A stretch of DNA of 64,000 nucleotides from Paracoccaceae bacterium. GTDB lineage: Bacteria > Pseudomonadota > Alphaproteobacteria > Rhodobacterales > Rhodobacteraceae. Below the pieces are notes generated by a model, which worked only from the letters and a program-made list of their open reading frames with translations, was not told the origin of the DNA and did no database searches. Made by a program: the position numbers and the translations under genes. The DNA lies in assembly GCA_009773055.1 (NCBI GenBank), contig WOUW01000001.1, forward strand, positions 1,810 through 65,809, in the 5' to 3' direction. How positions within the stretch are numbered: the stretch's first letter is position 1; each line of letters opens with the position of its first letter. Below, in pieces: positions 6,826 to 22,953 of this stretch.

Positions 6826-7125
6826 GGGGGATCTCCTTTGAACCGAAGGTAGGCCCCTGCCCGGGGAATTTCATCCCGAACTGAGCGCGCGGGGGGTGTG
6901 CGGGGGTGAACAGGCGAGGCTGCCCACGCGCGGGCAGGATTCTGCTGTAAATGGAATCAATGGGTTGGCTGTGGGCATTCAGATTGCCTTAACCTTTGAC
7001 TACACAGGGCAAGCCACGCGGCAGAAGGCTTGTCGGTGCGAAAAACCCATCCTGTCCGCGTAACGGAGTGCTTGAATTGCACGATCGAATAATATCGGAT
7101 GGGGTCAGAGAATCGGAGGGCATCC
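6826..7125. other. Divergent intergenic region between pirin and hydrolase genes
   Basis: No gene seen in these 300 bp. They must hold the promoters of both flanking genes. A perfect inverted repeat, CTGCCC-N6-GGGCAG, lies at 6920-6937 and may be an operator or a small hairpin; no T-run follows it. The SD of the hydrolase, GGAGGG, ends the region. Confidence 0.5.
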
Positions 7126-9171: not shown

Positions 9172-9268
9172 GCGAAATTAGTTGCCCGACGGGGCGTCAC
9201 GCGGTCTATTGATTCCACAGTCAACAAAAGAATCCCCACGATGATGGGGGACCAACAGGGAGACGACA

Positions 9269-10864
9269 ATGAACGACAAGGTGAACCAGCTGGACTGGAT
9301 GGTGGCGCAGGCGAAGGCTGGGCGGATGACCCGGCGCGAGTTTGTCGGCCGGACCACCGCGCTTGGGGTATCGGCGGGGCTTGCCTCGGCGATCTTCGGC
9401 AAGGCCGCGCAGGCTCAGGCCAAAAAGGGCGGCGTGCTGCGGGCCGGCATGCAGGGCGGCGAGTCGACCAACAGCCTTGACCCGGCATTGGCCGCATCCG
9501 AAGTGCCGTTCGCGGTCAACATGACCTGGGGCGAAATGCTGGTGGACGTGTCCCCCGACAACACCATCGACTATCGGATCGCGGAAGAGATCAGCTCGAA
9601 CGCCGATGCGACCGAGTGGAAGTTCAAGATCCGTCAGGGCGTCGAGTTCCATGACGGCAAGACAGTGACGGCGGACGATGTGGTCGCCACGCTGAAGCGT
9701 CACACCGACGAAAAATCGCAGTCGGGCGCGCTGGGGATCGTCCAGGGCATCTCGGAAATGACCGCCGAGGGCGACATGGTCACCTTGAAGATGGCAAGCG
9801 GCAACGCCGACCTGCCTTACCTCATGGCCGACTATCACCTGGTGATCCAGCCGGGCGGCGGTGTGGACAACCCGACCGCGGGCATCGGCGCCGGGGCCTA
9901 CAAGGTCAAGGTCAACGAACCCGGCGTGCGCCATGTGTTCGAGCGTCATGCAAACTACTGGGATGCAGCGAACGGTGCCCATGCCGACGAGGTCGAGATC
10001 ATCGTGATCAACGACAACACGGCGCGAACGGCGGCGCTGACCTCGGGCCAGATCCACATGATGAACCGGGTCGACCCGAAGATCGTGGAACTGCTGAAGG
10101 GCGCGGCTGGCATCACCATCGAGCATGCGCCGGGCCGGGGCCACTATGTCTTCATCATGCATGTCGACAAGGCCCCCTTCGACAACAACGACCTGCGCAT
10201 GGCTCTGAAGCTGGCGATCAACCGGCAGGAGCAAGTGGAAAAGGTGCTGGGCGGCCTTGGGGCGGTTGGCAACGACTTCCCGATCAACGCGGCCTATCCC
10301 CTGTTCGACAACACCATTCCGCAGCGCGAATACGACGCGGCGATGGCGGCCGAGCACTACAAGAAGTCGGGCCACGACGGCTCGCCCATCCTGCTGCAGG
10401 TCGCGGCCGGGGCCTTCCCGGGTGCTGTGGACGCGGCGAACCTGTTTGCGGCGTCGGCCAACGCGGCCGGCATCCCGCTGCAGATCAAGCTGGAGCCCGA
10501 TGACGGCTACTGGTCTAACGTTTGGAACGTGGCTCCGTTCTGCGCGTCCTACTGGGGCGGGCGTCCGGTGCAGGACCAGATGTATTCGACGGCCTACCTG
10601 TCGACGGCGGAATGGAACGACACCAAGTTCAAGAATGCCAAGTTCGACGAGCTGATGATCGCGGCACGGGCCGAACTGGACGAGGGCAAGCGCAAGGGCA
10701 TGTATTCGGAAATGGCGCATATCCTGCGCGACGAGGGCGGCCTGATCCTGCCGATGTTCAACGACTGGGTGGAAGCACGCAGCGAAGCCGTGGCCGGTTG
10801 GACGCCCGACCCGAATGGCGAGCTGATGAACGGCAAGGCCCTGATCAAGTGCTGGCTGGCATAA
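9269..10864 (+). CDS. ABC transporter substrate-binding protein (SBP_bac_5, DppA-like), Tat-exported
   Basis: Periplasmic binding protein of the peptide/nickel/opine cluster, 531 residues. A twin-arginine signal is visible at residues 21-50 (TRREFVGRT, hydrophobic ALGVSAGLASAIFG, then KAAQAQA), so it is probably folded before export. The SBP_bac_5 core shows WKFKIRQGVEFHDGKTVTAD and VRHVFERHANYWDAA. The SD GGGAG lies 8 bases before the ATG; a small hairpin (CCCCA/TGGGG, 9234-9249) sits in the leader. It comes 97 bp after the CocE hydrolase and is followed 4 bp later by the permease. The ligand is unknown; the neighbours suggest an ester, amide or phosphodiester compound. Confidence 0.92.
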   Translation: MNDKVNQLDWMVAQAKAGRMTRREFVGRTTALGVSAGLASAIFGKAAQAQAKKGGVLRAGMQGGESTNSLDPALAASEVPFAVNMTWGEMLVDVSPDNTIDYRIAEEISSNADATEWKFKIRQGVEFHDGKTVTADDVVATLKRHTDEKSQSGALGIVQGISEMTAEGDMVTLKMASGNADLPYLMADYHLVIQPGGGVDNPTAGIGAGAYKVKVNEPGVRHVFERHANYWDAANGAHADEVEIIVINDNTARTAALTSGQIHMMNRVDPKIVELLKGAAGITIEHAPGRGHYVFIMHVDKAPFDNNDLRMALKLAINRQEQVEKVLGGLGAVGNDFPINAAYPLFDNTIPQREYDAAMAAEHYKKSGHDGSPILLQVAAGAFPGAVDAANLFAASANAAGIPLQIKLEPDDGYWSNVWNVAPFCASYWGGRPVQDQMYSTAYLSTAEWNDTKFKNAKFDELMIAARAELDEGKRKGMYSEMAHILRDEGGLILPMFNDWVEARSEAVAGWTPDPNGELMNGKALIKCWLA

Positions 10865-10868
10865 GGCC

Positions 10869-11825
10869 GTGCATCCGATCCTGAAACTTCTGGTCCAGCG
10901 CATTGCGCTGGGCCTCCTGCTGTTGCTTGCCGTTTCGGCCGTGATCTTCCTTGGGGTGGAGGCCCTGCCGGGCGATACCGCCCAGGCGATCCTGGGCCAG
11001 TCGGCAACCCCGCAGGCGCTGGAAAACCTGCGCGAGAAACTGGGGCTGAACGACCCGCCGCTGACCCGCTATTTCCTTTGGCTGGGGGGAGTGCTGACGG
11101 GTGATCTGGGCACGGCCCTGACGAACGGTGTCGACATCGCGCAGGCCATTGGCCAGCGGCTGGGCAACACGCTGTTCCTGGCCGGATGTGCCGCCGTCAT
11201 CGCTGTGCCGCTTGCCATCCTTCTGGGACTGGTCGCCGCGCGCTACGCCGGGCGCTGGCCGGACAAGCTGATTTCGGGCATCACGCTGACCACGATCAGC
11301 CTGCCCGAATTCGTCGCGGCCTATTTCGTAATCTTCCTCTTCACGCAGGCCATCCCGATCTTCCAGCCTGTCGCCATGGTCTTTCCGGGCATGACCTTCT
11401 GGGCCAAGCTGAACGCGGTCGCCCTGCCCGTTATCGTCCTTGTCCTCGTGGTTCTCGCCCACATGATGCGGATGACCCGCGCGGCGATCCTGAACGTCAT
11501 GCAGTCCGCCTATATCGAGACCGCCGAGTTGAAGGGCCTGTCGCCCATGACGATCATCTGGCGCCACGCCTTTCCGAATGCCATTGCGCCCGTGGTCAGT
11601 GTGGTAATGCTGAACCTGGCCTATCTGGTCGTCGGCGTCGTCGTGGTCGAGGTGGTCTTCGGCTACAACGCCCTTGGCCAATACCTTGTTGACCACGTCA
11701 CCAAGCGCGATCTGCCAGTGGTGCAGGCCGTGGGCCTGATCTTCGCTGCGGTCTACATCTTCCTGAACATGCTGGCCGACATCATCGGCATCCTCGCCAA
11801 TCCACGCTTGAGGCACCCGAAATGA
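10869..11825 (+). CDS. ABC transporter permease (DppB-like)
   Basis: First inner-membrane permease of the Dpp/Opp-type importer, 318 residues. It has an N-terminal membrane helix (LLLLLAVSAVIFLGVEALPGD), the periplasmic segment ILGQSATPQALENLREKLGL typical of DppB, about five more helices, and the EAA-like loop around TAELKGLSPMTIIWRHAFPN. The GTG start lies 4 bases after the binding-protein stop. The end overlaps the next permease by 4 bases (ATGA), so the two are translationally coupled. Confidence 0.93.
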   Translation: MHPILKLLVQRIALGLLLLLAVSAVIFLGVEALPGDTAQAILGQSATPQALENLREKLGLNDPPLTRYFLWLGGVLTGDLGTALTNGVDIAQAIGQRLGNTLFLAGCAAVIAVPLAILLGLVAARYAGRWPDKLISGITLTTISLPEFVAAYFVIFLFTQAIPIFQPVAMVFPGMTFWAKLNAVALPVIVLVLVVLAHMMRMTRAAILNVMQSAYIETAELKGLSPMTIIWRHAFPNAIAPVVSVVMLNLAYLVVGVVVVEVVFGYNALGQYLVDHVTKRDLPVVQAVGLIFAAVYIFLNMLADIIGILANPRLRHPK

Positions 11826-12637
11826 GGATGCCCGTTTCCGCCCTGATCGGCCTTGTCCTGACCGGGACCTTCCTTTTCGTCGCGGTCTTTGCCCAATGGA
11901 TTGCCCCCTACGCTGTCGACGACAGCACGGGCGGCCAGTGGGAAGGCTTTTCCTCCGTGCACTGGCTTGGCACCGACACCATTGGCCGCGATATCCTGAG
12001 CCGGCTGATCTATGGCGCGCAGGTCACGATCTTCGTCGCACTCGCCTCGTCGGTCCTGGCCTTTTCCATGGGTGCCTTTCTGGGCTTCCTCGCGGCAGTC
12101 AAGGGCGGCTGGATCGACCAGCTTTTGTCCCGGATTGTCGATCTGATGATGGCTGTCCCGTCTTTGATCGTGGCGCTGGTCATGCTGTCGGTGCTGCCGC
12201 TGAACCTGACGGTCCTGATCCTGGTCATGGGCATTCTGGACAGCACCCGCGTGTTCCGGCTGTCCCGTGCGGTCGCGGTCGACATCACGGTGATGGACTA
12301 TGTCGAGGCGGCAAAGCTGCGCGGCGAAAAGGGCGGCTGGGTGATCTTCCGGGAAATCCTGCCAAATGCGCTGTCGCCACTTGTCGCGGAATTTGGCTTG
12401 CGCTTCATTTTTGCGGTCCTGTTCATTTCGACCCTGTCGTTCCTGGGGCTTGGCATCCAGCCGCCCTTGGCCGACTGGGGTGGGATGGTGAAGGAAAACA
12501 AGGATGGCCTGATCTATGGCAAATCGGCGGCCCTGCTGCCTGCCGCTGCGATCGCAGCACTGGCCATCAGCGTGAACCTTGTCGCCGACTGGATCCTGAC
12601 CCGCACCTCCAGCCTGAAAGGAGGCCGCGGTGGCTGA
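11822..12637 (+). CDS. ABC transporter permease (DppC-like)
   Basis: Second permease of the importer, 271 residues. It has an N-terminal helix, the DppC signature HWLGTDTIGRDILSRLIYGAQ, and the EAA loop AAKLRGEKGGWVIFREILPNA that contacts the ATPase. It overlaps the previous gene by 4 bases and the ATPase gene by 8, so all three should be made together. Confidence 0.93.
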   Translation: MRMPVSALIGLVLTGTFLFVAVFAQWIAPYAVDDSTGGQWEGFSSVHWLGTDTIGRDILSRLIYGAQVTIFVALASSVLAFSMGAFLGFLAAVKGGWIDQLLSRIVDLMMAVPSLIVALVMLSVLPLNLTVLILVMGILDSTRVFRLSRAVAVDITVMDYVEAAKLRGEKGGWVIFREILPNALSPLVAEFGLRFIFAVLFISTLSFLGLGIQPPLADWGGMVKENKDGLIYGKSAALLPAAAIAALAISVNLVADWILTRTSSLKGGRGG

Positions 12638-14264
12638 CCCTCTGCTTGTGATCAAGGGCCTGGTTATCGAGGCCACCTCCTATCCGCCGGGCGAGCCCCC
12701 GAAGAACGTGACTCTGGTCCATGGCGTGGATCTGACACTGCAAAGGGGTCGGGTTCTGGGCCTGATCGGAGAATCGGGTGCCGGAAAGTCCACCATCGGC
12801 CTCTCTGCCATGGCCTATGGGCGCGGTGGAGTGCGGCTGACCGGTGGCACGATCCACCTGAACGGGCGCGAGATCCGCGTTGCCGACCCTCGCGCGTTGC
12901 GCGCGCTTCGGGGGCGCGAGGTGACCTATGTTTCGCAATCTGCCGCTGCCAGTTTCAACCCGGCAAAGCAGATCATGGAGCAAGTGATCGAGACCTCGGT
13001 GTCGCATGGCTTGATGTCGAAATCCGAAGCCGAGGCCCGAGGTGTGGCCCTGTTCCGCAAGCTTGGCCTGCCGAACCCCGAAACCATCGGCAACCGCTAT
13101 CCGCATCAGGTGTCTGGCGGGCAGTTGCAGCGGTGCATGACGGCGATGGCCTTGTGCCCCAAGCCCGACCTTGTGATCTTCGACGAACCGACGACCGCGC
13201 TGGACGTGACGACGCAAATCGACGTGCTGGCCGCAATCAAGGAGGCGATACGCGATACGCAGGTCGCCGCCCTTTATATCACGCATGACCTTGCCGTCGT
13301 GGCGCAGGTCGCCGACGACATCATGGTGTTGCGGCATGGGCGGATGGTCGAACTCGGCGAGACCGGTCAGATCATTCACCGCCCGACACAGGATTATACC
13401 AAGGCGCTGGTGTCGGTTCGCAGCCTTGACCACACCGAAAAGCCCCCGGCGCAACCCGTCCTTTCGGTCCAGAACATCACCGCCCGGTATCGCGGCACCA
13501 CGTTCGACGTGTTGAAGACCGTGTCGGTCGATCTTCCCGCCGGGCAGACGCTGGCGGTCGTGGGCGAAAGCGGCTCGGGCAAATCCACGCTTGCCCGTGC
13601 GATCACCGGGCTTTTGCCGCCGACGTCGGGCCGCATCACCTTTGCCGGGCGGACGCTGTCGGCCGACCTTGCCGGGCGGACGAAGGACGATCTGCGCGAG
13701 ATCCAGATGATCTACCAGATGGCGGATACCGCGATGAACCCGCGCCAGACGGTCGGCACGATCATCGGACGACCGCTGGAGTTCTACTTCGGCCTGCGGG
13801 GCGAAGCGCGCGACAAACGGGTGCAGGAGCTGCTGGACCAGATCGAGATGGGCAAGGGCTTTGCCGACCGCTACCCGGCGGAACTGTCGGGCGGCCAGAA
13901 GCAGCGGGTCTGCATTGCGCGCGCGCTGGCGGCGAACCCCAAGCTGATCATCTGCGACGAGGTGACCTCGGCCCTGGACCCGCTGGTGGCAGACGGCATC
14001 CTGAAGCTTCTTCTGAACCTGCAGGCCGAGGCTGGAGTGGCGTATCTGTTCATCACCCATGACCTTGCGACGGTGAAGGCCATCGCCGACAAGATTGCCG
14101 TCATGTTCAAGGGTGCGGTCGTGCGCTATGGTCAGAAGTCGGATGTGCTGACCCCGCCGTTCGACGACTATACCGACCTTCTGCTGTCCTCGGTCCCCGA
14201 GATGGAGCAGGGCTGGCTGGAGCGGGTGATCGCGCATCGCAAGATGGAAAGCGCGGGGAACTAG
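12630..14264 (+). CDS. ABC transporter ATP-binding protein, DppD-DppF fusion
   Basis: Two ABC ATPase domains in one chain of 544 residues, replacing separate DppD and DppF. First domain: Walker A GESGAGKST (about 47-55), signature VSGGQLQR, Walker B LVIFDEP. Second domain: Walker A GESGSGKST (about 312-320), signature LSGGQKQR, Walker B LIICDEV. The first domain carries HVSGG-type features complete enough to be active. The GTG start overlaps the dppC-like gene by 8 bases. Fused ATPases of this kind are common in alphaproteobacterial peptide/opine importers. Confidence 0.93.
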   Translation: MADPLLVIKGLVIEATSYPPGEPPKNVTLVHGVDLTLQRGRVLGLIGESGAGKSTIGLSAMAYGRGGVRLTGGTIHLNGREIRVADPRALRALRGREVTYVSQSAAASFNPAKQIMEQVIETSVSHGLMSKSEAEARGVALFRKLGLPNPETIGNRYPHQVSGGQLQRCMTAMALCPKPDLVIFDEPTTALDVTTQIDVLAAIKEAIRDTQVAALYITHDLAVVAQVADDIMVLRHGRMVELGETGQIIHRPTQDYTKALVSVRSLDHTEKPPAQPVLSVQNITARYRGTTFDVLKTVSVDLPAGQTLAVVGESGSGKSTLARAITGLLPPTSGRITFAGRTLSADLAGRTKDDLREIQMIYQMADTAMNPRQTVGTIIGRPLEFYFGLRGEARDKRVQELLDQIEMGKGFADRYPAELSGGQKQRVCIARALAANPKLIICDEVTSALDPLVADGILKLLLNLQAEAGVAYLFITHDLATVKAIADKIAVMFKGAVVRYGQKSDVLTPPFDDYTDLLLSSVPEMEQGWLERVIAHRKMESAGN

Positions 14265-14275
14265 GCAGGTTGCGG

Positions 14276-14327
14276 GCCAGACGCCCTGCCAGACAGATGC
14301 CAGACACATGCCGGACGGTTTGCAGAC
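14276..14327 (+). repeat. Five phased GCCAGAC-like repeats before the phosphodiesterase gene
   Basis: GCCAGAC occurs at 14276, 14288 and 14299, GCCGGAC at 14310 and GCAGAC at 14322. The spacings are 12, 11, 11 and 12 bases, close to one helical turn. The last copy abuts the ATG, and no ordinary SD is visible. Confidence 0.6.
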
Positions 14328-15161
14328 ATGACGAAGCTTCTTCTCATCATCCTTGACGGCGTGCCGTACCGCAACTGGCGGCGGCTTTTTGGCAACCTTG
14401 AAGGCTGGGTGGAAAGCGGCGAGGCCCGGGTACGGCGGATGCGGGCGGTGCTGCCTTCGACCTCGGCCTCGTGCTATGCCTCGATCCACACTGGTCTGCC
14501 GCCGCAGGTGCATGGGATATGGGCCAACGCCGACATTCGCCGGCTGGAATTTCCTGATGTTTTCAGCGCATTGACCGGTGCGGGCAAGACGACCGGAGCG
14601 GTCACCCACAGCTACTGGAGCGAATTCTTCAACCGCGCGCCCTTCGATGTCGTGCGGGACATCGAATATGACGAACCCGGCGGCCCGATCACCCACGGCC
14701 GGTTTCACACGATGCATCGTGACAGCAGCTACAACCAGATGACCCCGGCCGATTATGACCTCTTCGGTACGCTCACCCGGCTTTGTGAAGTGAAATCAAT
14801 TGACTACGGCATCCTGCACAGCTGCACCCTCGACAGCCTGGGCCATCGCTTCTACCACGACTGCGAAGAAATGGATGACGCTTGCTACCGGATGGACGGC
14901 ACGCTGGCGCCCTTCATTCACCGTTGGCGGCAGAATGGGTATGAGGTCATTGTCACCGCCGACCACGGGCAGGACGCGCGCGGCCATCATGGCGGGACGG
15001 GCGAGGATCAGCGCGACTTTGCGTTTTACTACTTCGGCACCAGTGATTTGCCGCCCGAAGATCAGGTCCTGGATCAACTTGCCCTTGCGCCGTCGATGCT
15101 GACGCGGTTGGGGGTGCCGGTGCCGCCGACAATGCGGGCCGCGCCGTTTCTGAACGGCTGA
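14328..15161 (+). CDS. Type I phosphodiesterase / nucleotide pyrophosphatase family protein
   Basis: Alkaline-phosphatase-superfamily metalloenzyme of 277 residues, likely hydrolysing a phosphodiester, phosphonate or sulfate ester. Metal ligands and nucleophile fit the family: Asp10 in IILDGVPY, Ser46 (or Thr45) in LPSTSASCYASIHTG, the D-x-x-GH motif in CTLDSLGHRFYHD, DH in VTADHGQDA and His in GHHGG. There is no signal peptide, so it is cytosolic and could act on what the ABC importer brings in. It lies 63 bp after the ATPase gene on the same strand, separated by the phased repeats. The true substrate cannot be told. Confidence 0.85.
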   Translation: MTKLLLIILDGVPYRNWRRLFGNLEGWVESGEARVRRMRAVLPSTSASCYASIHTGLPPQVHGIWANADIRRLEFPDVFSALTGAGKTTGAVTHSYWSEFFNRAPFDVVRDIEYDEPGGPITHGRFHTMHRDSSYNQMTPADYDLFGTLTRLCEVKSIDYGILHSCTLDSLGHRFYHDCEEMDDACYRMDGTLAPFIHRWRQNGYEVIVTADHGQDARGHHGGTGEDQRDFAFYYFGTSDLPPEDQVLDQLALAPSMLTRLGVPVPPTMRAAPFLNG

Positions 15162-15193
15162 ACCTCGGCCGCAACCGTGAAATTCGGCAGCAC

Positions 15194-15235
15194 TTCAACA
15201 GCTTCGCCTGTTGAAAGCACTGCACTTCGTGTGCA
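15194..15235 (+). terminator. Two adjacent hairpins after the phosphodiesterase gene
   Basis: Hairpin 1: TTCAACAG-CTTCGC-CTGTTGAA (15194-15215). Hairpin 2: TGCAC-TTCGT-GTGCA (15221-15235). Both loops hold TTCG. No T-run follows, so termination or leader control of the BTAD gene are both possible. Confidence 0.4.
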
Positions 15236-15268
15236 TCGTTAACCAATACAGTCTTGGGGCCCCCTTTC

Positions 15269-17284
15269 ATGTTGCGCTTTCACGTCAACCTTCTCGGGTC
15301 CTGCCGGGTCGCGCGGGTCGCGACCGGGGAAGAGGTGACGTTCCGCACCCGCAAGACACGGCTTCTGCTGGGGCTTTTGCTGCTGAGCCCGGGCAACCGG
15401 ATGAACAGCGAACAGCTGGCCTCGCTGCTGTGGGACCCCGCACCCGAAGCCCTGGCCCGCAGCAGCCTGCGTCAGGCGCTGCGCGAACTGCGCGAGGTGC
15501 TGGGGCCGGATGGCGAGGACGTCGTCGAGGCTGATCGCTTTTCGGTCGGGCTGAAGGGCGCCGCCTTCGACGTCGATGTCCGCCGTTTTCGCGAGCTGAT
15601 CGTGACCGGCGCGCATGACCAGGCTGCGCTGATCTCGGCCGCTGCCCTGTGGCAGGGCGAGCTGTTCGGCCCGGCGCAGCCCAGCGCACCGGTCTTCGAG
15701 GCCTGGCTCCAGATCGAGCGGTCGCAGCTTCGGTCGATCCTGACTGGCGCGCTGACTGACCAGCTGCAAAAACTGATTGCGGCCAACGCGTTCACCGACA
15801 CGCGCATTGCCGAGGAACTGGTGCGGATCGAGCCAAGCCACGAGCTTGCACATCAGTTCATCATGCGGTTCCACGCCCAAAGGGGCGACCAGTCGGCAGC
15901 GCTTCGGCAGTTCGCCCTGCTGGAGACGGCGCTGGCGGAAGAACTGGACAGCGAACCGAGCGAGGCGTCGAACGAGCTTTTGGTCGCGATCAAGTCGGGC
16001 GAGGTTTCCCTTCAGCGCGTGGCAAATCTTCCAGCCATGAAGGTCGGCACCCTGTCGCGCAGCGGCCCGCCCCGGATCACCATCCGGCCACCGCTGACCC
16101 GCTACACGGACAACAGCAAGGACTACCTTGGCGAGGGCTTTGCCTTCCTGGCCAAGTCCTGCCTGTCGCGCTTTCGCTGCTGGATCGTGATCCCGTGGCC
16201 ATCGATAGGATTTGAATCGACCACTGCCGTCGATTTCACTGCCGTAGGACAGGTCATCGACGCGGACTTTGCGGTCGACTGCGTGCTGGACTGGCGCACG
16301 GGCGGGGGCAAGCTTTTCGTGACGCTGATCGACTGCCGCGATGGCAGCGAGGTCTGGTCTGACCTTTATCCAGTGGCCGAACATGACATGCAGGAGGTCA
16401 GCTCGTCCGTGGCGGGGGCAGTGGCGGCCAATCTGGCCAGCCAGGTCAACCACATCACTCTGTTGCGCCATGCCCGTTCGACACCGGGGAACCCGGTGGC
16501 CTATGACCTTTGGCTGAAGGGGCACCAGTTGTCGCGCCTCTGGTCTGCCGAGGCCGATGCCGAGGCAGAAGCGATGTTCTTGCGGGCCATCGAGCTTGAT
16601 CCGGGCCTTGCCGGAAGCCACGCGAGCCTGGCGCAGATCCTGTGCAGCCGCAGCCTGGTCCGTCCGGGCTATCCCAACCGAAAGGCCGATTGCACGGCGG
16701 CCTTCAAGCATGCCCGCGAAGCCATCGCGCTGGATCCCTATGATCCGCGCTGTCATATCAGCATGGCCTGGAACTGGCTGATCGCAAAATCGCCCGAGCG
16801 CGCGAACACGCACTTCCGGATGGCAGTTGACCTGAACCCGAATGATTCAGAGGCCCTGATCGCCGCCGCCTGCGGGCTGGCTTTCCTTGGGCACATTGAC
16901 GACGCGAAGGGTCTTGCCGGCAAGGCGGTGCAGATGAACCCGGTCTACCCCGAGTACTATACCGATTACCTGTCGGCCATCCAGTTTCTCGACGCCGACT
17001 ACCAGACAACGATCGAGACGGTCGAGAAGTGTTACGAAGGCTTTCCGGATCGCGCGGCCCTGGCCGCGGCCGCTTGGGCGCTTCTGGGGCGAGACGCCAA
17101 GGCCGGGGCAGCCTACCAATACTTCTCGACGCTGACGACCTCGAAGTGGGAAGGCACCGGGCGCGCCGAGGACAATGACCTTGAGCGATGGATCATGGAC
17201 GTATTGCCAATCCACTGGCCCAAGGGACAGCAAAGCCTTCTGGCGGGCCTGCGGCTTGCCCGTCAGATGGCCGGTCAAGCCTGA
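15269..17284 (+). CDS. BTAD-domain transcriptional activator with TPR C-terminus
   Basis: AfsR/SARP-like or CadC-like transcription factor of about 671 residues. An OmpR-type winged helix spans about residues 1-95 (FRTRKTRLLLGLLLLSPGNR, LASLLWDPAPEALARSSLRQ, LRELREVLG), followed by the bacterial transcriptional activator domain to about 240 (helical repeats, AEELVRIEPSHELAHQFIMR). The middle resembles the TolB/adenylate-cyclase-associated segment (FAVDCVLDWRTGGGKLFVTL, CRDGSEVWSD). The rest is TPR repeats (AIELDPGLAGSHASLAQILC, AIALDPYDPRCHISMAWNWL). No membrane helix was seen. The ATG giving MLRFHVNLLG is chosen; a TTG five codons earlier is the alternative. It precedes the YcaO and peroxidase genes and could control them. 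Confidence 0.8.
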   Translation: MLRFHVNLLGSCRVARVATGEEVTFRTRKTRLLLGLLLLSPGNRMNSEQLASLLWDPAPEALARSSLRQALRELREVLGPDGEDVVEADRFSVGLKGAAFDVDVRRFRELIVTGAHDQAALISAAALWQGELFGPAQPSAPVFEAWLQIERSQLRSILTGALTDQLQKLIAANAFTDTRIAEELVRIEPSHELAHQFIMRFHAQRGDQSAALRQFALLETALAEELDSEPSEASNELLVAIKSGEVSLQRVANLPAMKVGTLSRSGPPRITIRPPLTRYTDNSKDYLGEGFAFLAKSCLSRFRCWIVIPWPSIGFESTTAVDFTAVGQVIDADFAVDCVLDWRTGGGKLFVTLIDCRDGSEVWSDLYPVAEHDMQEVSSSVAGAVAANLASQVNHITLLRHARSTPGNPVAYDLWLKGHQLSRLWSAEADAEAEAMFLRAIELDPGLAGSHASLAQILCSRSLVRPGYPNRKADCTAAFKHAREAIALDPYDPRCHISMAWNWLIAKSPERANTHFRMAVDLNPNDSEALIAAACGLAFLGHIDDAKGLAGKAVQMNPVYPEYYTDYLSAIQFLDADYQTTIETVEKCYEGFPDRAALAAAAWALLGRDAKAGAAYQYFSTLTTSKWEGTGRAEDNDLERWIMDVLPIHWPKGQQSLLAGLRLARQMAGQA

Positions 17285-17296
17285 TGCGAAGGTTGT

Positions 17297-17677
17297 CTAC
17301 CTGCACTTGCGCATGAAGTAGCGCGCCAGCAGCACCTTGAAACGAACTTCTGGTTCACTGCCATAGCTGGGCTCGTTCACGATGACGGGCGTCGTTTCCA
17401 GATCACCCGCCCACGGGACCTTCACGTGCATCCGGTTCGGGGTGTCGTAGACGGGCACGATCTCGACACTGACGGGGATCTCGCCGTTCGGGCCTGCGCC
17501 CGGACCTTCGTAGCGATAGCCATTGCGGTGTAGCCAGCCCCGCGTGTCGTCATTGAACTGCCGCCACTCGGAGGTCGGCGAGCTGTCGAAGGCGCTCTTG
17601 CTCACCTCGATGATTGCCGAGCCGGTCTTCGCCTGGTCGGCGAGAGAATTGTTCTTCAGTTTAATGAATCCGGCCAT
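17297..17677 (-). CDS. Hypothetical protein between the BTAD and YcaO genes
   Basis: 126 residues, not recognised. It begins MAGFIKLKNNSLADQAKTGS, is rich in beta-type segments (IPVSVEIVPVY, RMHVKVPWAG) and ends in the basic tail ARYFMRKCR with a single cysteine. No signal peptide or membrane helix is seen. It is convergent with the BTAD gene (12 bp between stops) and divergent from the YcaO gene, whose promoter region it shares. The codon choice and GC look like the neighbours. A RiPP precursor role is not supported: there is no Cys/Ser/Thr-rich core. Confidence 0.65.
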   Translation of the reverse strand: MAGFIKLKNNSLADQAKTGSAIIEVSKSAFDSSPTSEWRQFNDDTRGWLHRNGYRYEGPGAGPNGEIPVSVEIVPVYDTPNRMHVKVPWAGDLETTPVIVNEPSYGSEPEVRFKVLLARYFMRKCR

Positions 17678-17773
17678 TCCTGTGTCACTCCCCTGCTAGT
17701 TGGTTCGCTTATACGTCCGGTCTTCGCCCCACTATTCCGCCGGTTCGTGATGCCAGCGTGAAATGGAGACTGG

Positions 17774-18883
17774 GTGTCCGATTCTGACCTTGATCCCTGC
17801 GGCCATCCTGCCTTGAATGGCCGAATGAAGCAAAACCCGGCTGAGATGATCGAACGGCTGTCGCGGGCGCTGGCGAATGATTTCCGGATCATGCCGCTGG
17901 ACCTGCCCGACGCGCCGCTGTTCCTCGCGATTGCCCTGCCGACGGACGAGGGCGTGACGGGGTTGAAGCCAAGACTTCCGGCCGGGCGTGGCATGACCTT
18001 GCAGCAGGCGATGCTGGCCGCCGGGGCCGAGGCACTGGAGTTGCGCGCCAGTCTGGCGCAGCATCATCTGGCGGAACTGCAGCGCCTGCCCAGAAAGGAA
18101 GGTCTGGCCGTGGTGACCGCGACCGATCTGGTGACGGGTGAGGCCGCCCAGATCCTGGCGCAAAGCGTGTTTCTGGACAGCGCCACGGCCCTTTCCGAAC
18201 CGCTCCGGGATGACGCGAATTCCACCGGATGTGCGGTCGGCCGGAACAGGGAAAGTGCCGTGGCGAACGCCCTTTGGGAATGCGTGGAGCGTGACGCTAT
18301 GGCCTTGTGGTGGCATGGCAACCGGCAAGGCACCGCCGTGGCGCTGGAAGTGATCGACGCGCAGCAGCCCCGGCTGTTCTGGTGGCTGCACCAGCGCCCT
18401 CGGGAGACGCGGCTTCTGGACATCACGACAGACATTGGCCTGCCGGTCGTGGTCGCGGTTGCGGCCGAAGAGGATGGCCGGGTCGTGGCTTTGGGATCGG
18501 CGGCGCGACCGGTTCTGAAGGATGCAGCACTGGCCGCAGTGACCGAGATGGTGCAGACCGAGGTCAGCCTCGACCTGGCGCGCGAAGTTGGCCAGACCGA
18601 GGCGCTCGACTGGATCGCCTCGGCCTCGATGACCATGGACCGGCCGTTTCAGCCCGGGCCCGCGCGGGGTTCGGAGCCGCTGGCGATGCCGGATCTGCTG
18701 GCACGCCTGGCCGACCTTGGCCACCAGGCGCTTGCGGTCGAGATGACGCTTCCCGGCGATCCGATGCCTGCCATGCGGGTGGTCGTGCCAGGCCTTTGCG
18801 CGATGCAAGGTCGGACCGACACCCCCCGCTTTGCCCGGCTTTGCCCCGGACAGCCCAGACTGAATATGCCCGAACCTTTCTGA
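17774..18883 (+). CDS. Stand-alone YcaO-domain protein
   Basis: YcaO enzymes use ATP to activate peptide amide oxygens, making azolines, thioamides or amidines in RiPP natural products and modified proteins. The family hallmark is clear: NSTGCAVGRNRESAVANALW then ECVERDAMALWW, with Glu169, Glu172 and Arg173 in the expected ATP/Mg places and an earlier glutamate pair in AGAEALELR (Glu86, Glu89). At 369 residues it is a complete single domain. No E1-like or TfuA partner is fused or adjacent. The C-terminus, LNMPEPF, is only weakly reminiscent of the Pro-rich tail of azoline-forming members. A GTG start follows TGGAGAC; an ATG at 17825 is possible. It is followed 39 bp later by a haem peroxidase. 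The substrate is unknown. Confidence 0.85.
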   Translation: MSDSDLDPCGHPALNGRMKQNPAEMIERLSRALANDFRIMPLDLPDAPLFLAIALPTDEGVTGLKPRLPAGRGMTLQQAMLAAGAEALELRASLAQHHLAELQRLPRKEGLAVVTATDLVTGEAAQILAQSVFLDSATALSEPLRDDANSTGCAVGRNRESAVANALWECVERDAMALWWHGNRQGTAVALEVIDAQQPRLFWWLHQRPRETRLLDITTDIGLPVVVAVAAEEDGRVVALGSAARPVLKDAALAAVTEMVQTEVSLDLAREVGQTEALDWIASASMTMDRPFQPGPARGSEPLAMPDLLARLADLGHQALAVEMTLPGDPMPAMRVVVPGLCAMQGRTDTPRFARLCPGQPRLNMPEPF

Positions 18884-18922
18884 CGGTAGCCCTACTTTTT
18901 CCCAGACTGAACGAGGCACCCC

Positions 18923-20596
18923 ATGCCGCCGATCACCCGCCCGCATATCCTGTTCGGCCCCGACACCCCGGACCCGATGCAACTGGAGACCGCTGTCAGC
19001 GCGCGCTCGCAATCACGATACTGCTACCGCTTTCCCGATCTGGCGATGAACGACCGGGTAGGCTGCTTTGCCGGAACCACTCCGGCGGAAACTTTCGCCC
19101 GGCTGAAGGCTTTCGAGGAGGATAGCCGCACGCCGCTTGGCGTTTTGCCGGCCATGCCGATGCGGCTGCCACCTGTCTATACCTATTTCGGTCAGTTCGT
19201 GAACCACGACATTTCCGCCCCCGTGGGGGATGTGATCACCCGTCCGGACAAGCCGAAGGCCGTGGAGGTCATCGTCTCGACCGAACCGCCGGGGCTGGAT
19301 CGCGCGCGGCGGGCGACTGCCGAGACCATCCTGAAACACTTCGTCAACGAGCAGGCCGATCCCCTGTCGCTGGACAGCCTTTACGGCGAAGGTCCGGACA
19401 GTGCCGACCCCAAGACCCGGAAGCTGTATGAGGCGGATGGCAAGCGCTTTCGCCTGGGCGTCACCCGGCGCGAAGACGATCAGGTCTTCCTCGATATCCA
19501 GAAGGACCCGGGGCTTGTCTACCGCGAGACTGGTGCGCGCGACATTGTGCGCGCAGATGGCACGCCGCTGATCGCCGACCACCGAAACGACGAGAACCTG
19601 GTGGTCAGCCAGCTGCATCTTGCTCTGGTTCTGTTCCACAACAAGGCCATTGGGCGTCTGGAAGGCAAGTTCGCCACAGCAAAGGAGTGCTTTGCGGCGG
19701 CGCGGCAGTTGGTGACGCTGCATTATCACTGGCTGATCCTGCATGACTTTCTGCGCAACCTGCTGTCGCGATCGGCACTGGCGACGCCCTGGGGAGAGAG
19801 ACCGCCAACAAAGCTTGCGCCGCGGGCCGTGCCGCTGGAGTTCACCACGGCGGCCTTCCGGTTCGGGCATTCGATGGTCGGGGCGTTCTACGATTTCAAC
19901 GCGAACTTCAGTCGCGGGGCGTATCTTGGGCCCGAAGGTGCATCGCTACAGCAGCTTTTCGACTTCACCACGCACAAGAACATGGGCCAGGGCGGTGCCA
20001 AAACGCTGCAGCTTCCGGATCACTGGGTGATCGACTGGGATCGAATGACGCGGGCAACTGGCGCGGGCACAATTGGCGGGGCCGAAAAGATCGACCTGAC
20101 GTTCGCCCCAGACATGCTGAACGCGATGGGAATGAAACATGCCGTCGAGCATGGGTCGATCCTGTTTCGCAACCTGATGCGCGGGTTCCACCGCCGGATT
20201 CCGTTTGGCCAGGTTCTGGCAGCAGAATACGGGCTGGACCCGTTGGAAGCGGACGACATTCGGGCGGCTTTGCCGGATGGGCATATCGACGGCCCCCAGT
20301 CCAAGACCCTGCGCGAAGTGGCCGCGGACCTTGGAATGCTGCGCGAAACGCCGGCGTGGCTGTATTTCCTGTGCGAAGCACGCCAGCTGGAGGGTGGCGA
20401 ACGCGTCGGGCCTGCAGCAAGCCAGATCATCGCCGACACGATCGTCGGCCTGATGCAGCACATGCCGACCTCGATCCTGAACTTCTGTGGCGGAACCTGG
20501 CATCCGCGCCACAGCCCGCTGAAGGACGGCGATGACGACGGGCTGACCTCGATCCGCAAGCTGCTGATGTTTGCCGTCAAAGACACACACATCTAG
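18923..20596 (+). CDS. Animal-type haem peroxidase
   Basis: Member of the peroxidase-cyclooxygenase (animal haem peroxidase) superfamily, 557 residues. The distal histidine is His95 in YFGQFVNHDIS; the haem-linking acid/arginine motif is D219-H-R221-N-D-E224-N225; the proximal histidine is His316 in FRFGHSMVG. The end (ILNFCGGTWHPRHSPLKDGD) is also typical. No signal peptide is evident, so the protein is cytosolic or leaves by another route. The SD is weak (GAGG). It is placed 39 bp behind YcaO on the same strand, so co-expression is likely. Bacterial members make hypohalous acids or oxidise small molecules; here the partner may be the YcaO product, which is inference. Confidence 0.88.
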   Translation: MPPITRPHILFGPDTPDPMQLETAVSARSQSRYCYRFPDLAMNDRVGCFAGTTPAETFARLKAFEEDSRTPLGVLPAMPMRLPPVYTYFGQFVNHDISAPVGDVITRPDKPKAVEVIVSTEPPGLDRARRATAETILKHFVNEQADPLSLDSLYGEGPDSADPKTRKLYEADGKRFRLGVTRREDDQVFLDIQKDPGLVYRETGARDIVRADGTPLIADHRNDENLVVSQLHLALVLFHNKAIGRLEGKFATAKECFAAARQLVTLHYHWLILHDFLRNLLSRSALATPWGERPPTKLAPRAVPLEFTTAAFRFGHSMVGAFYDFNANFSRGAYLGPEGASLQQLFDFTTHKNMGQGGAKTLQLPDHWVIDWDRMTRATGAGTIGGAEKIDLTFAPDMLNAMGMKHAVEHGSILFRNLMRGFHRRIPFGQVLAAEYGLDPLEADDIRAALPDGHIDGPQSKTLREVAADLGMLRETPAWLYFLCEARQLEGGERVGPAASQIIADTIVGLMQHMPTSILNFCGGTWHPRHSPLKDGDDDGLTSIRKLLMFAVKDTHI

Positions 20597-20738
20597 CTTA
20601 TCTCGCTGGCTTCCAACGGTGATGGGCTGGACATTTCGCCGATTTCCCCGCAAAGACGCGGCGATGCGCAGGGCGCGCGCGAACTGTCATTGACGGTCGC
20701 TGGCCGCCTTGCGTCTATCTTGCGGAGACGCCCAACCG

Positions 20739-21218
20739 ATGACCGCCGAATACCGCCACTTGCAGTCGCCCCTGCTCCGGCAACTCGCCCTGACCCTGGC
20801 GCTGCCGATTGCGGCCTGCGCGCCCTCGACGAGCACGATGCAACTTTACCCGCTGCAGGGAGAGATTGCCGACTCCGATCCGACACTCGTCATTCGCGCG
20901 ACGGCGAAGAACACCACCGGCACGTCCGGCGCGCTGACCTTCCGCCTGCCCGAGCGTGGCAAGTGCAGCGGCACCTGGAGCTCGCTGACCCCGCGCAAGG
21001 TATCGAACTCGAAGGGTCTGGCGCTGACCTGGAAGAAAACTGGCGGTGAGGTCGGCACGGCACGGGAAACCGTCGCCGGGGTGAACAACGGCGAGATCTA
21101 CGCCGTCTGCGACGATGGCACCCGGGTGCAGGGCACCTTCGTCATCGGTTCGGGCACGGCCAGCGGCACCGGACAGGCGTCCGACACCAATGGCAACGTC
21201 TACAAGCTTCTGTTCTGA
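20739..21218 (+). CDS. Small secreted lipoprotein of unknown function
   Basis: 159 residues from the ATG at MTAEYRHLQS. A lipoprotein signal is visible: LLRQLALTLALPIAAC, with the lipobox IAAC and Cys27 as the acylated residue. The mature part is a beta-rich domain with one Cys pair (GKCSGTW, YAVCDDGTR) and ends in TNGNVYKLLF, a tail I associate with a conserved proteobacterial secreted family without a known function. GGAGA lies 10 bases before the ATG; a TTG ten codons earlier is less likely. It is convergent with aroB: the stops abut. Confidence 0.75.
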   Translation: MTAEYRHLQSPLLRQLALTLALPIAACAPSTSTMQLYPLQGEIADSDPTLVIRATAKNTTGTSGALTFRLPERGKCSGTWSSLTPRKVSNSKGLALTWKKTGGEVGTARETVAGVNNGEIYAVCDDGTRVQGTFVIGSGTASGTGQASDTNGNVYKLLF

Positions 21219-22328
21219 TCAGCGGTTGCGGAAGGCGTCCGTCAGCACCGCGCGCACTGCGTCGCCGGGCACGTCATCGGCCACGAAGGCCTGACCGATC
21301 CCGCGCGCAAGGATGAAGCGCAGGCGTCCGTCGACCACCTTCTTGTCCTGCCCCATCAGCGCAATCAGCGCGTCGGGCCCGGGCAGATCGCCCGCGATAT
21401 CGGCGATGTCGACCTTCATCCCCATCGCCTTCAAATGCGCCCGGACGCGGCTGGGCTCTTCCTGACTGCACAGACCCAGACGCGACGACAGCTCGAAGGC
21501 CAGCGCGCATCCGATGGCCACGCCTTCGCCGTGCAGAAGGCGGTCGGAGTATCCTGTCGCCTTTTCAAGCGCATGGCAGAAAGTGTGCCCCAGATTGAGC
21601 AGCGCACGCTCACCTTCTTCGGTCTCGTCGCGGCTGACGATCCCGGCCTTCATCTCGACCGACCGCGTCACTGCTTTCAGCCGGGCCGCCGCGTCCCCGG
21701 CCCGGATCGCGGGGCCGTCGCGTTCCAGCCAGTCAAAGAAGACCGCGTCGCCCAGAAGCCCGTATTTCACCACCTCGCCATAGCCCGACAGGAAGTCGCG
21801 GTCGGGAAGCGTGGTCAGCACGTCAATGTCGGCAAGGACAAGGCTTGGCTGGTGAAACGCGCCGACCAGGTTCTTGCCTTGCGCAGTGTTGATGCCGGTC
21901 TTGCCACCAACCGAGCTGTCGACCTGCGCAAGCAGTGTGGTTGGCAGCTGCACGAACCTGACGCCGCGCCGCAGGATGGCAGCCGAGAAGCCGACAAGGT
22001 CGCCGATCACCCCGCCACCAAGGGCGACGACGACATCCCTCCGCTCGACCTTCTGATCGAGCAGCCATTCGGTGCATTGTGCCAGGTTAGCCCAGTTCTT
22101 CGTCGCCTCGCCCGGGGGCAAGGCCAGCGACGAAACGGCGATCCCTTCGGCCTCAAGCGCGGCAGTCAGAGCGGAAAGGTGCAGGGCGGCAACGGTGGCA
22201 TCCGTCACGATCGCGACGCGCTTTCGGCGCAGAAGGGGCGCGATCTCGACCCCTGCGCGGGCGAACAGGCCCGGGCCGATCCGCACCTCGTAGGACCGGT
22301 CCCCCAGATCAACGGCTACCCTGTTCAC
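21219..22328 (-). CDS. aroB: 3-dehydroquinate synthase
   Basis: Second step of the shikimate pathway: DAHP to 3-dehydroquinate, needing NAD and a divalent metal. It is full length at 369 residues with VVALGGGVIGDLVGF, QLPTTLLAQVDSSVGGKTGIN, and the metal ligand regions GYGEVVKYG and LNLGHTFCHALE. The start overlaps the aroK stop by 4 bases, so aroK-aroB form one coupled operon. Confidence 0.97.
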   Translation of the reverse strand: MNRVAVDLGDRSYEVRIGPGLFARAGVEIAPLLRRKRVAIVTDATVAALHLSALTAALEAEGIAVSSLALPPGEATKNWANLAQCTEWLLDQKVERRDVVVALGGGVIGDLVGFSAAILRRGVRFVQLPTTLLAQVDSSVGGKTGINTAQGKNLVGAFHQPSLVLADIDVLTTLPDRDFLSGYGEVVKYGLLGDAVFFDWLERDGPAIRAGDAAARLKAVTRSVEMKAGIVSRDETEEGERALLNLGHTFCHALEKATGYSDRLLHGEGVAIGCALAFELSSRLGLCSQEEPSRVRAHLKAMGMKVDIADIAGDLPGPDALIALMGQDKKVVDGRLRFILARGIGQAFVADDVPGDAVRAVLTDAFRNR

Positions 22329-22870
22329 GTCGAACCCTCCAGCACATCCGGCCGCGCCTTCAACGCCTCGCGAACCCGCGCGGCCATGTCTTCAACCGAC
22401 CGTTCGGCGGCACTTTCGACCACGATGTCGGCCTGCGCATAGAACGGCTGCCGACGTTCGTATAGCTCGCGCAGCGTTTCGCGCGGATTTGCCGTACGCA
22501 ACAGCGGCCTTGTCGTCTTGTGACGGACGCGCTGCCACAACAGTTCGAGATCCGCGCAAAGCCAAACGGAAACCCCGACATCATGGATCAGTCTGCGGTT
22601 CGCCTCGGACAGGAACGCCCCGCCGCCGGTGGACAGGACACACGGCGTGCTGCGCAACAGACGGGCGATCACCTCGGTCTCGCGGGCGCGAAAGAACGCC
22701 TCGCCGTCGCGTTCAAAAATCTCGGCGATGCTGCGATTGGCGGCGCGGACGATTTCCTCGTCGGAATCGCGAAACTCGACCCCAAGCTGGCGGGCAAGCG
22801 CGGTGCCGACTGCCGTCTTGCCAGCACCCATCATTCCAACCAGCACAACCGTTTTCGTCAGCCTTGCCAT
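22325..22870 (-). CDS. aroK: Shikimate kinase
   Basis: Phosphorylates shikimate at O3 with ATP. Of about 181 residues: P-loop GMMGAGKTAVG, shikimate-binding FRDSDEEI and FFRARETEVI, LSTGGGAFL, and the lid arginines in RPLLRTANPRETL. The ATG giving MARLTKTVVLVG is chosen from family likeness; a GTG five codons upstream has a better purine run and is the alternative. Coupled to aroB. Confidence 0.95.
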   Translation of the reverse strand: MARLTKTVVLVGMMGAGKTAVGTALARQLGVEFRDSDEEIVRAANRSIAEIFERDGEAFFRARETEVIARLLRSTPCVLSTGGGAFLSEANRRLIHDVGVSVWLCADLELLWQRVRHKTTRPLLRTANPRETLRELYERRQPFYAQADIVVESAAERSVEDMAARVREALKARPDVLEGST

Positions 22871-22953
22871 GGCCACCCGTTCCACAACCCCCCTGCCCCG
22901 GGCAAGGACTTGCCGACGGGAAATCTTCCTCCCTCAATGGCGTGAACTCTTGC

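Follow-up and report, generated by a model that had tools for sequence, protein, structure and literature searches.

The stretch of DNA analysed here, 64,000 nucleotides of contig WOUW01000001.1 from a Paracoccaceae bacterium (genome G000, 59% complete) and hereafter called the window, carries intact open reading frames (ORFs) for a BTAD/TPR transcriptional regulator, a stand-alone YcaO enzyme and an animal-type haem peroxidase, together with a small protein gene on the opposite strand. These genes make up the cassette considered in this study, and they are listed below, in window coordinates, with the elements that accompany them.

15254..17284, plus strand: BTAD/TPR transcriptional regulator (PF03704); the ORF opens with TTG, and the likely start is the ATG at 15269
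17297..17677, minus strand: candidate substrate protein of 126 amino acids (aa), with an NHLP-like middle and the C-terminal end ..VLLARYFMRKCR
17303-17305, minus strand: codon of the sole Cys of the small protein (residue 125)
17746..17763, plus strand: conserved box CGTGATGCCAGCGTGAAA in the intergenic stretch that separates the small ORF from ycaO, a possible site for the regulator
17774..18883, plus strand: stand-alone YcaO of 369 aa with a GTG start (PF02624)
18923..20596, plus strand: animal-type haem peroxidase of 557 aa (PF03098)
20709..21218, plus strand: small lipoprotein-like ORF (lipobox recognised by eye), belonging to the aroB flank and lying outside the cassette

The original prediction had placed an intact YcaO and an intact peroxidase 39 bp apart on one strand, downstream of a BTAD/TPR gene of the activator type, and both the coordinates and the Pfam matches agree with it. 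In particular, the BTAD domain of the regulator (53.1 bits, E 5.7e-14), the YcaO domain (117.1 bits, E 1.3e-33) and the An_peroxidase domain (41.2 bits, E 1.1e-10) all exceed their cut-offs; the DNA-binding domain PF00486 of the regulator reaches 22.2 bits, under the cut-off of 26.2, and the SagD-family domain of NCBIfam scores 106.4 bits in the YcaO, below its cut-off of 219.25. The closest solved relative of the peroxidase is peroxinectin A, a weak match (E 0.0027), and no signal peptide is apparent by eye. Neither an E1-like protein nor TfuA occurs among the scanned window proteins (7099 to 22885), as already predicted, the TfuA model having been run on these proteins and not on other loci. 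The 489-bp gap between the regulator and ycaO contains the minus-strand ORF of 126 aa, absent from the original prediction. An origin as recent foreign DNA was rejected on composition, since the GC content of the cassette (0.62-0.67) resembles that of its flanks, and a role in anti-phage defence was discarded because PADLOC gave no match for five window proteins.

The catalytic motifs of both enzymes were examined in an alignment of 26 sequences that includes 3 from the window's genus, in which the key positions are conserved in 96-100%, consistent with the earlier claim that they are intact. In the YcaO, E86, E89, E169 and E258 are invariant and E172 and R173 are found in 96% of the sequences; following the YcaO literature, we take the ATP- and Mg-related residues to be among these positions. 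In the peroxidase, Q91, H95, R313 and H316 are invariant and R221 occurs in 96%, with Q91, H95 and R221 presumably acting as the distal Gln, His and Arg and H316 as the proximal His, as assigned from the peroxidase literature.

Inheritance and recurrence of the cassette

Within the window's genus, the YcaO, the small ORF and the orthologous peroxidase are found in the identical 13 of 32 genomes, and the regulator is present in all 13 fetched cassette copies, the other 19 genomes not having been searched for it. Contig ends truncate the peroxidase in G017 and the regulator in L031. Diverged peroxidases (30-36% identity) occur in G007, G030 and G031 and, as second copies, in G009 and G010.

The phosphodiesterase gene that lies upstream was found in 8 of the 21 genus genomes searched, all 8 of which are devoid of an orthologous cassette. 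At four of these places (L091, L093, L095, L096) the block formed by the lipoprotein gene, aroB and aroK, the latter two confirmed by Pfam, comes immediately after it, and these are empty sites; at the other four (L092, L094, L097, L098) the block is not in the fetched stretch. Furthermore, in L034 (G027) and L035 (G025) the cassette stands at another place, and the small lipoprotein-like ORF was not found beside it. The regulator is split over two frames in L034 and the YcaO likewise in L035, so that these copies may be decaying or may contain sequencing errors. Since the empty sites keep the lipoprotein and the L034 and L035 cassettes occur without it, the lipoprotein belongs to the site and not to the cassette. 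Its inclusion in the locus, as first proposed, is ruled out by the four cassette-free sites that retain it beside aroB, and the unit is composed of four genes, namely, the regulator, the small ORF, the YcaO and the peroxidase.

To place the cassette in a wider context, An_peroxidase was searched for in three overlapping sets of genomes, drawn from the order (390 genomes, 131 with a match), the class (385, 31 with a match) and the phylum (398, 47 with a match). YcaO was then searched for in 189 peroxidase-bearing genomes (80, 75 and 34) and was found in 63 of them (22, 22 and 19). Of the 63 genomes holding both, at least 22 (17 + 5) have the YcaO no more than about 5 kb from a peroxidase, a lower bound because the places of the peroxidases were partly listed and some YcaO regions were not fetched. 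The two genes occur together in 17 of the 36 fetched regions, the remaining 19 showing a YcaO with the regulator, a YcaO alone, a peroxidase alone or neither. Two further paired loci came from G007 and G036, and plasmid records supplied another five (Rhodobacteraceae bacterium QY30, Mesorhizobium huakuii NZP2235, Paroceanicella profunda D4M1, Paracoccus denitrificans HAMBI_2443 and Phaeobacter inhibens P78). Altogether, 29 diverged loci with YcaO and peroxidase were collected, all alphaproteobacterial, 24 at first and 5 later, the latter by YcaO-peroxidase proximity and with no use of the small gene; the YcaO is truncated by a contig end in L043 and is in pieces in L127. The paired loci display several gene orders and represent several families of the class. 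Of 15 peroxidase-bearing genomes of the phylum from outside this class, 10 also hold a YcaO, in no case near a listed peroxidase. The homologues are therefore neighbours in other genomes too, and the idea of a joint YcaO-peroxidase-regulator system is strongly supported by this recurrence.

For comparison of gene content, we considered 25 loci chosen for having both YcaO and peroxidase (the 24 first diverged loci and L034), in which only three BLAST protein clusters recur throughout: YcaO, regulator and peroxidase. The other clusters span 3 to 14 loci, and not all of them were identified: the largest resembles antisense frames of the regulator, one of 8 loci is identified by its L048 member as an oligopeptide-type ABC ATPase, one of 7 is the L053 type of small protein, and one of 3 is a response regulator by one member. 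No fourth family is common to all 25 loci (E1 models were not run per locus), nor is any peptidase or exporter shared by the whole set (no exporter model was run per locus). Moreover, the pairwise divergences of YcaO and peroxidase are correlated over these loci (r=0.81; 0 of 9999 permutations as high).

The regulator, present in the 13 genus copies, has homologues in the diverged loci, with weak matches in L040 (1.7e-18) and L041 (3.4e-17) that may rest on the TPR repeats. An extra N-terminal adenylate/guanylate cyclase domain is found in the regulators of L036, L039 and L041 and may also be present in the longer regulators of L046-L049 and L051; it suggests a nucleotide signal as the input. 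The regulators of the window, L036 and L041 show a weak similarity to the NCBIfam family TIGR04510, 'putative peptide modification system cyclase', with scores of 19-38 bits versus a cut-off of 400. Just upstream of ycaO, a partly palindromic box of 18 bp (consensus CGTGATnnCArCGTGAAA) is exact in 11 of the 13 genus copies, counted in the same alignment from which the pattern was derived, and is absent from L034, L035 and the diverged loci compared. When two mismatches are allowed, the box has one match in the window versus 0.04 expected, and it is possible that it represents the site of the regulator.

Some further observations were made in the surroundings of these loci. An uncharacterised family with no Pfam match occurs near three modules (L038 11579-12940, L099 9783-10976 and L121 2769-3866), and a second, diverged YcaO stands beside the module on the Paracoccus denitrificans plasmid (L120 12877-14187, minus strand). 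Several Alphaproteobacteria (e.g., G223, G270 and G420) present open frames of about 1800-3500 aa with repeated An_peroxidase matches.

The small Cys-tailed protein

The cassette had been thought to include no obvious precursor, whereas the minus-strand gene at 17297-17677 is precursor-like, and each module locus holds a gene that corresponds to it. Its product shares 44-81% identity with 12 orthologues in the genus, and its mean dN/dS of 0.23 (maximum 0.48; 66 pairs, 12 sequences), with values of 0.12-0.26 for the window protein against 11 orthologues, points to purifying selection. The C terminus reads YFMR[KHQR]CR in all 13 genus copies. To judge from this pattern of conservation, the ORF is a real gene. 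The window protein has no direct family match in Pfam or NCBIfam, the small proteins tested gave no meaningful match in either, and two homologues (L041, L042) found no match among PDB sequences.

Inspection of the small open frames near the homologous loci revealed a conserved Cys-tailed protein in all 29 diverged loci, with the pattern [AGS]-x6-C-x(1-3). In 21 of the first 24, a gene of about 130-250 aa begins at or near the stop of the peroxidase on the same strand. In L050 (11922-13949, minus strand) the peroxidase is fused in frame to a small Cys-tailed domain ending in RVGDYTIAQCK, and in L040 and L041 the small gene is divergent from ycaO. We compared 32 tails, 27 from peroxidase loci (3 of the window's genus) and 5 from YcaO-regulator loci with no detected peroxidase, anchoring each on its Cys or, where more than one Cys occurs in the last four residues, on the one with A, G or S at -7. 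The tail is short and patterned and usually has one Cys: position Cys-7 is G, A or S in 32/32 (17/14/1), Cys-8 is L, V, M, F, I or A, and Cys-5 is Tyr in 20/32.

Because many tail ORFs had been found by their Cys, a Cys-blind rule was also applied, which takes the longest ORF starting between -40 and +110 bp from the peroxidase stop. It gave an ORF of at least 100 aa in 21 of 24 loci, 20 of these 21 with a Cys in the last three residues, versus 12 of 142 control ORFs of 100-260 aa. The controls, drawn from the same loci, each follow some other open frame of 250 codons or more, whether or not that frame is a genuine gene. A Cys tail is present in 103 of 930 arbitrary ORFs of 120-260 aa. The exceptions to the rule are L055, with a longer overlapping out-of-frame ORF, L040 and L041, where the gene is elsewhere, and L050, where it is fused. 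In all five later loci the small protein ends in such a tail (LLGTILLRRCR, RIGDYTISFCA, RIADYTIRGCR, RVADYTISVCS and RIGDYTISICA), four recovered by the Cys-blind rule and the fifth by a Cys scan. A scan of the genome collection with peptide patterns yielded only 3 loci.

The YcaO and the regulator occur with no detected peroxidase in 8 loci, 5 of which (L100, L102, L103, L105, L107) have a Cys-tailed ORF; no clear one was seen in the other three (L059, L101, L111). The L102 locus is near a Rieske oxygenase.

The middle of the small protein was related to NHLP leaders by profile-profile comparison against NHLP sequences from six loci. The window clade (13 sequences) scored 36.2, L040/L041 (2) 35.6 and the L042-type clade (6) 25.7, whereas the controls did not exceed 16.2 in 60 neighbour-gene windows or 13.8 with reversed alignments. 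In the window protein, the match covers EIPVSVEIVPVYDTPNRMHVKVPWAGDL. NHLP leaders are folded and are recognised by a YcaO, as demonstrated experimentally (PMC12455567), and the family is described as having a Gly-Gly site, a hypervariable core and an exporter of the ABC type (PMC2887384). In our tails, positions Cys-7/-6 read A-R, G-D, G-I, A-S, etc., with Gly-Gly only in L102 and L103 among the 32, one small residue being conserved, and no hypervariable core rich in Cys, Ser and Thr is seen. Since the Gly-Gly site, the hypervariable core and the exporter were not found here, we call the small protein NHLP-like, on its profile similarity, and not a member of NHLP.

Putative modification of the protein tail

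It is possible to hypothesize that the BTAD/TPR protein controls the cassette and that the small ORF encodes a folded substrate protein, the NHLP-like body of which would act as a docking leader and the last ~7 residues as the core. With ATP, the YcaO would activate the backbone amide just before the near-terminal Cys, whose side chain would close on the activated amide to give, probably, a thiazoline. The haem peroxidase would oxidise the tail, turning the thiazoline into a thiazole or acting on the Tyr that often lies five residues upstream. The modified tail may stay attached to the protein, because there is no Gly-Gly and no peptidase or exporter that recurs in all loci. The L050 fusion, known from a single genome, favours a lasting association between the peroxidase and the tail protein, and the Cys-tailed ORFs at peroxidase-free loci suggest that the YcaO carries out the central reaction, on which the peroxidase elaborates. 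We regard it as likely that the small protein is the substrate of the YcaO, and on balance we favour the view that the four genes form a cassette for post-translational modification of a protein tail. An action of the peroxidase on the same tail is an evenly poised question, and azoline chemistry there is plausible but somewhat doubtful. More tentatively still, the YcaO and the haem peroxidase might represent a new class of protein-tail modification, in which the two enzymes equip the C-terminal Cys of a folded, NHLP-derived protein with a heterocycle or a cross-link. This group would not be set free as a natural product and would remain on the protein as a redox group working together with the peroxidase; the last element is suggested by the L050 fusion, and the proposal as a whole is rather unlikely to be right in every part.

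Several results weigh against tail modification by these enzymes. The chemistry is deduced from the genes, and neither a second domain nor a leader-binding domain was detected in the window YcaO. In the lineage of the window, ycaO and the small gene are on opposite strands. Of 10 proteins scanned at E<=10, none matched TIGR03793 (NHLP), similarity to NHLP is also missing from the cyclase-type Rhodobacterales clade (A4), and the bodies of the precursor clades align to one another unconvincingly. The second peroxidase of L125 has no tail protein behind it. As for the regulator, the BTAD model of Pfam is reached in the window, L036 and L053 and missed in L041, L060 and L119. The AlphaFold model of the small protein, built on four sequences, is poor (pLDDT 49), as is that of the peroxidase (pLDDT 35, four sequences). 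Finally, the YcaO was placed in a family tree (46 rows), as had been proposed at the outset, and the YcaOs of the modules do not form one clade: the tree has 3 label changes, none of the 200 bootstrap replicates has a single one, the branches are long, and the L040/L041 enzymes group with SagB-type YcaOs. The starred branches alone are compatible with one origin; a single origin is not supported by the tree, and since the module YcaOs are not one clade, the pairing with the peroxidase may have arisen more than once.

Among the alternatives, the small protein could still be the YcaO substrate while the change made at its tail is a thioamide or an amidine, the peroxidase acting elsewhere with the modified protein as its partner subunit. 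YcaO enzymes do make such groups (PMC8120280, PMC8442711), the L050 fusion fits a stable partnership, and 5 of the 8 YcaO-regulator loci with no detected peroxidase have a Cys-tailed ORF; however, a single conserved Cys is most simply read as a cyclising nucleophile, and TfuA is missing from the window proteins scanned, to which the search for it was confined. We consider this explanation improbable, if worth keeping in mind. Less credit is due to the view that the small protein is unmodified and serves the peroxidase as an adaptor or inhibitor, with its Cys binding haem or a metal or forming a disulfide, and that the YcaO has its substrate elsewhere. The small gene does usually adjoin the peroxidase gene and not ycaO, to which the single fusion adds, but tailed ORFs also stand beside a YcaO and regulator with no detected peroxidase, the small gene adjoins ycaO in the window lineage and in L040/L041, and NHLP-like bodies are known YcaO leaders (PMC12455567), which together make it distinctly unlikely.

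The picture in which a YcaO and a peroxidase, accompanied by a lipoprotein and lacking a precursor, act on some unlinked peptide or metabolite agrees with the enzymes and regulator as first described, but it is largely refuted and very improbable, given that the empty sites remove the lipoprotein and that the co-inherited small ORF is a candidate substrate. A chance adjacency of unrelated genes would be conceivable within the window lineage alone, where synteny can be inherited with no common function; it is refuted by the recurrence of pairs within about 5 kb, which at least 22 of the 63 genomes show, with various gene orders and across several families, and hardly deserves any weight.

The tail modification that we favour can be set beside known systems. 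NHLP precursors with a YcaO cyclodehydratase (MprE/MprC/MprD; NHLP-TOMM) share with the cassette a structured NHLP-type body, a short Cys tail and an adjacent YcaO. Different from them, a haem peroxidase occupies the place of the flavin oxidase MprD, the YcaO stands alone, the regulator is of the BTAD type, no peptidase or exporter was found in all loci, and there is neither a Gly-Gly site nor a hypervariable core. LAP/TOMM loci with YcaO and SagB are similar in the YcaO enzyme and in a plausible azoline product; in L115 and L117, a YcaO annotated as 'TOMM precursor leader peptide-binding protein' adjoins a SagB dehydrogenase, and the peroxidase and regulator profiles gave no match in the fetched stretches. 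Of the TOMM/LAP hallmarks, the intact YcaO residues are present and an E1-like partner or fusion was not seen in the window scan. Stand-alone YcaOs of the ribosomally synthesised and post-translationally modified peptides streptamidine and bottromycin likewise work with no E1-like partner (PMC4603692 and PMC8442711), and streptamidine-family precursors measure 31-89 residues versus about 126-250 aa here.

In the literature, the titles and beginnings of abstracts among the matches listed, a scope that leaves out most subscription journals and bioRxiv preprints, hold no report of a set formed by YcaO, peroxidase, regulator and small protein; 'peroxid' is absent from the main text of PMC4603692, PMC2887384 and PMC8442711, and the peroxidases in the passages of PMC8776678 consulted are unrelated. 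A YcaO and a haem peroxidase are rarely paired, and the cassette points to an unreported way of modifying a protein tail. Since the small proteins measure about 126-250 aa and are annotated as hypothetical in three annotated records (L060, L119, L121), tools for short precursors would probably miss these candidate substrates. The recurrent orphan stand-alone YcaOs of Alphaproteobacteria gain a defined candidate substrate, which has a single Cys in the lineage of the window, so that two or three genes placed in Escherichia coli would be enough to test the reaction. If the proposal is true, haem peroxidases would join the known partners of YcaO enzymes.

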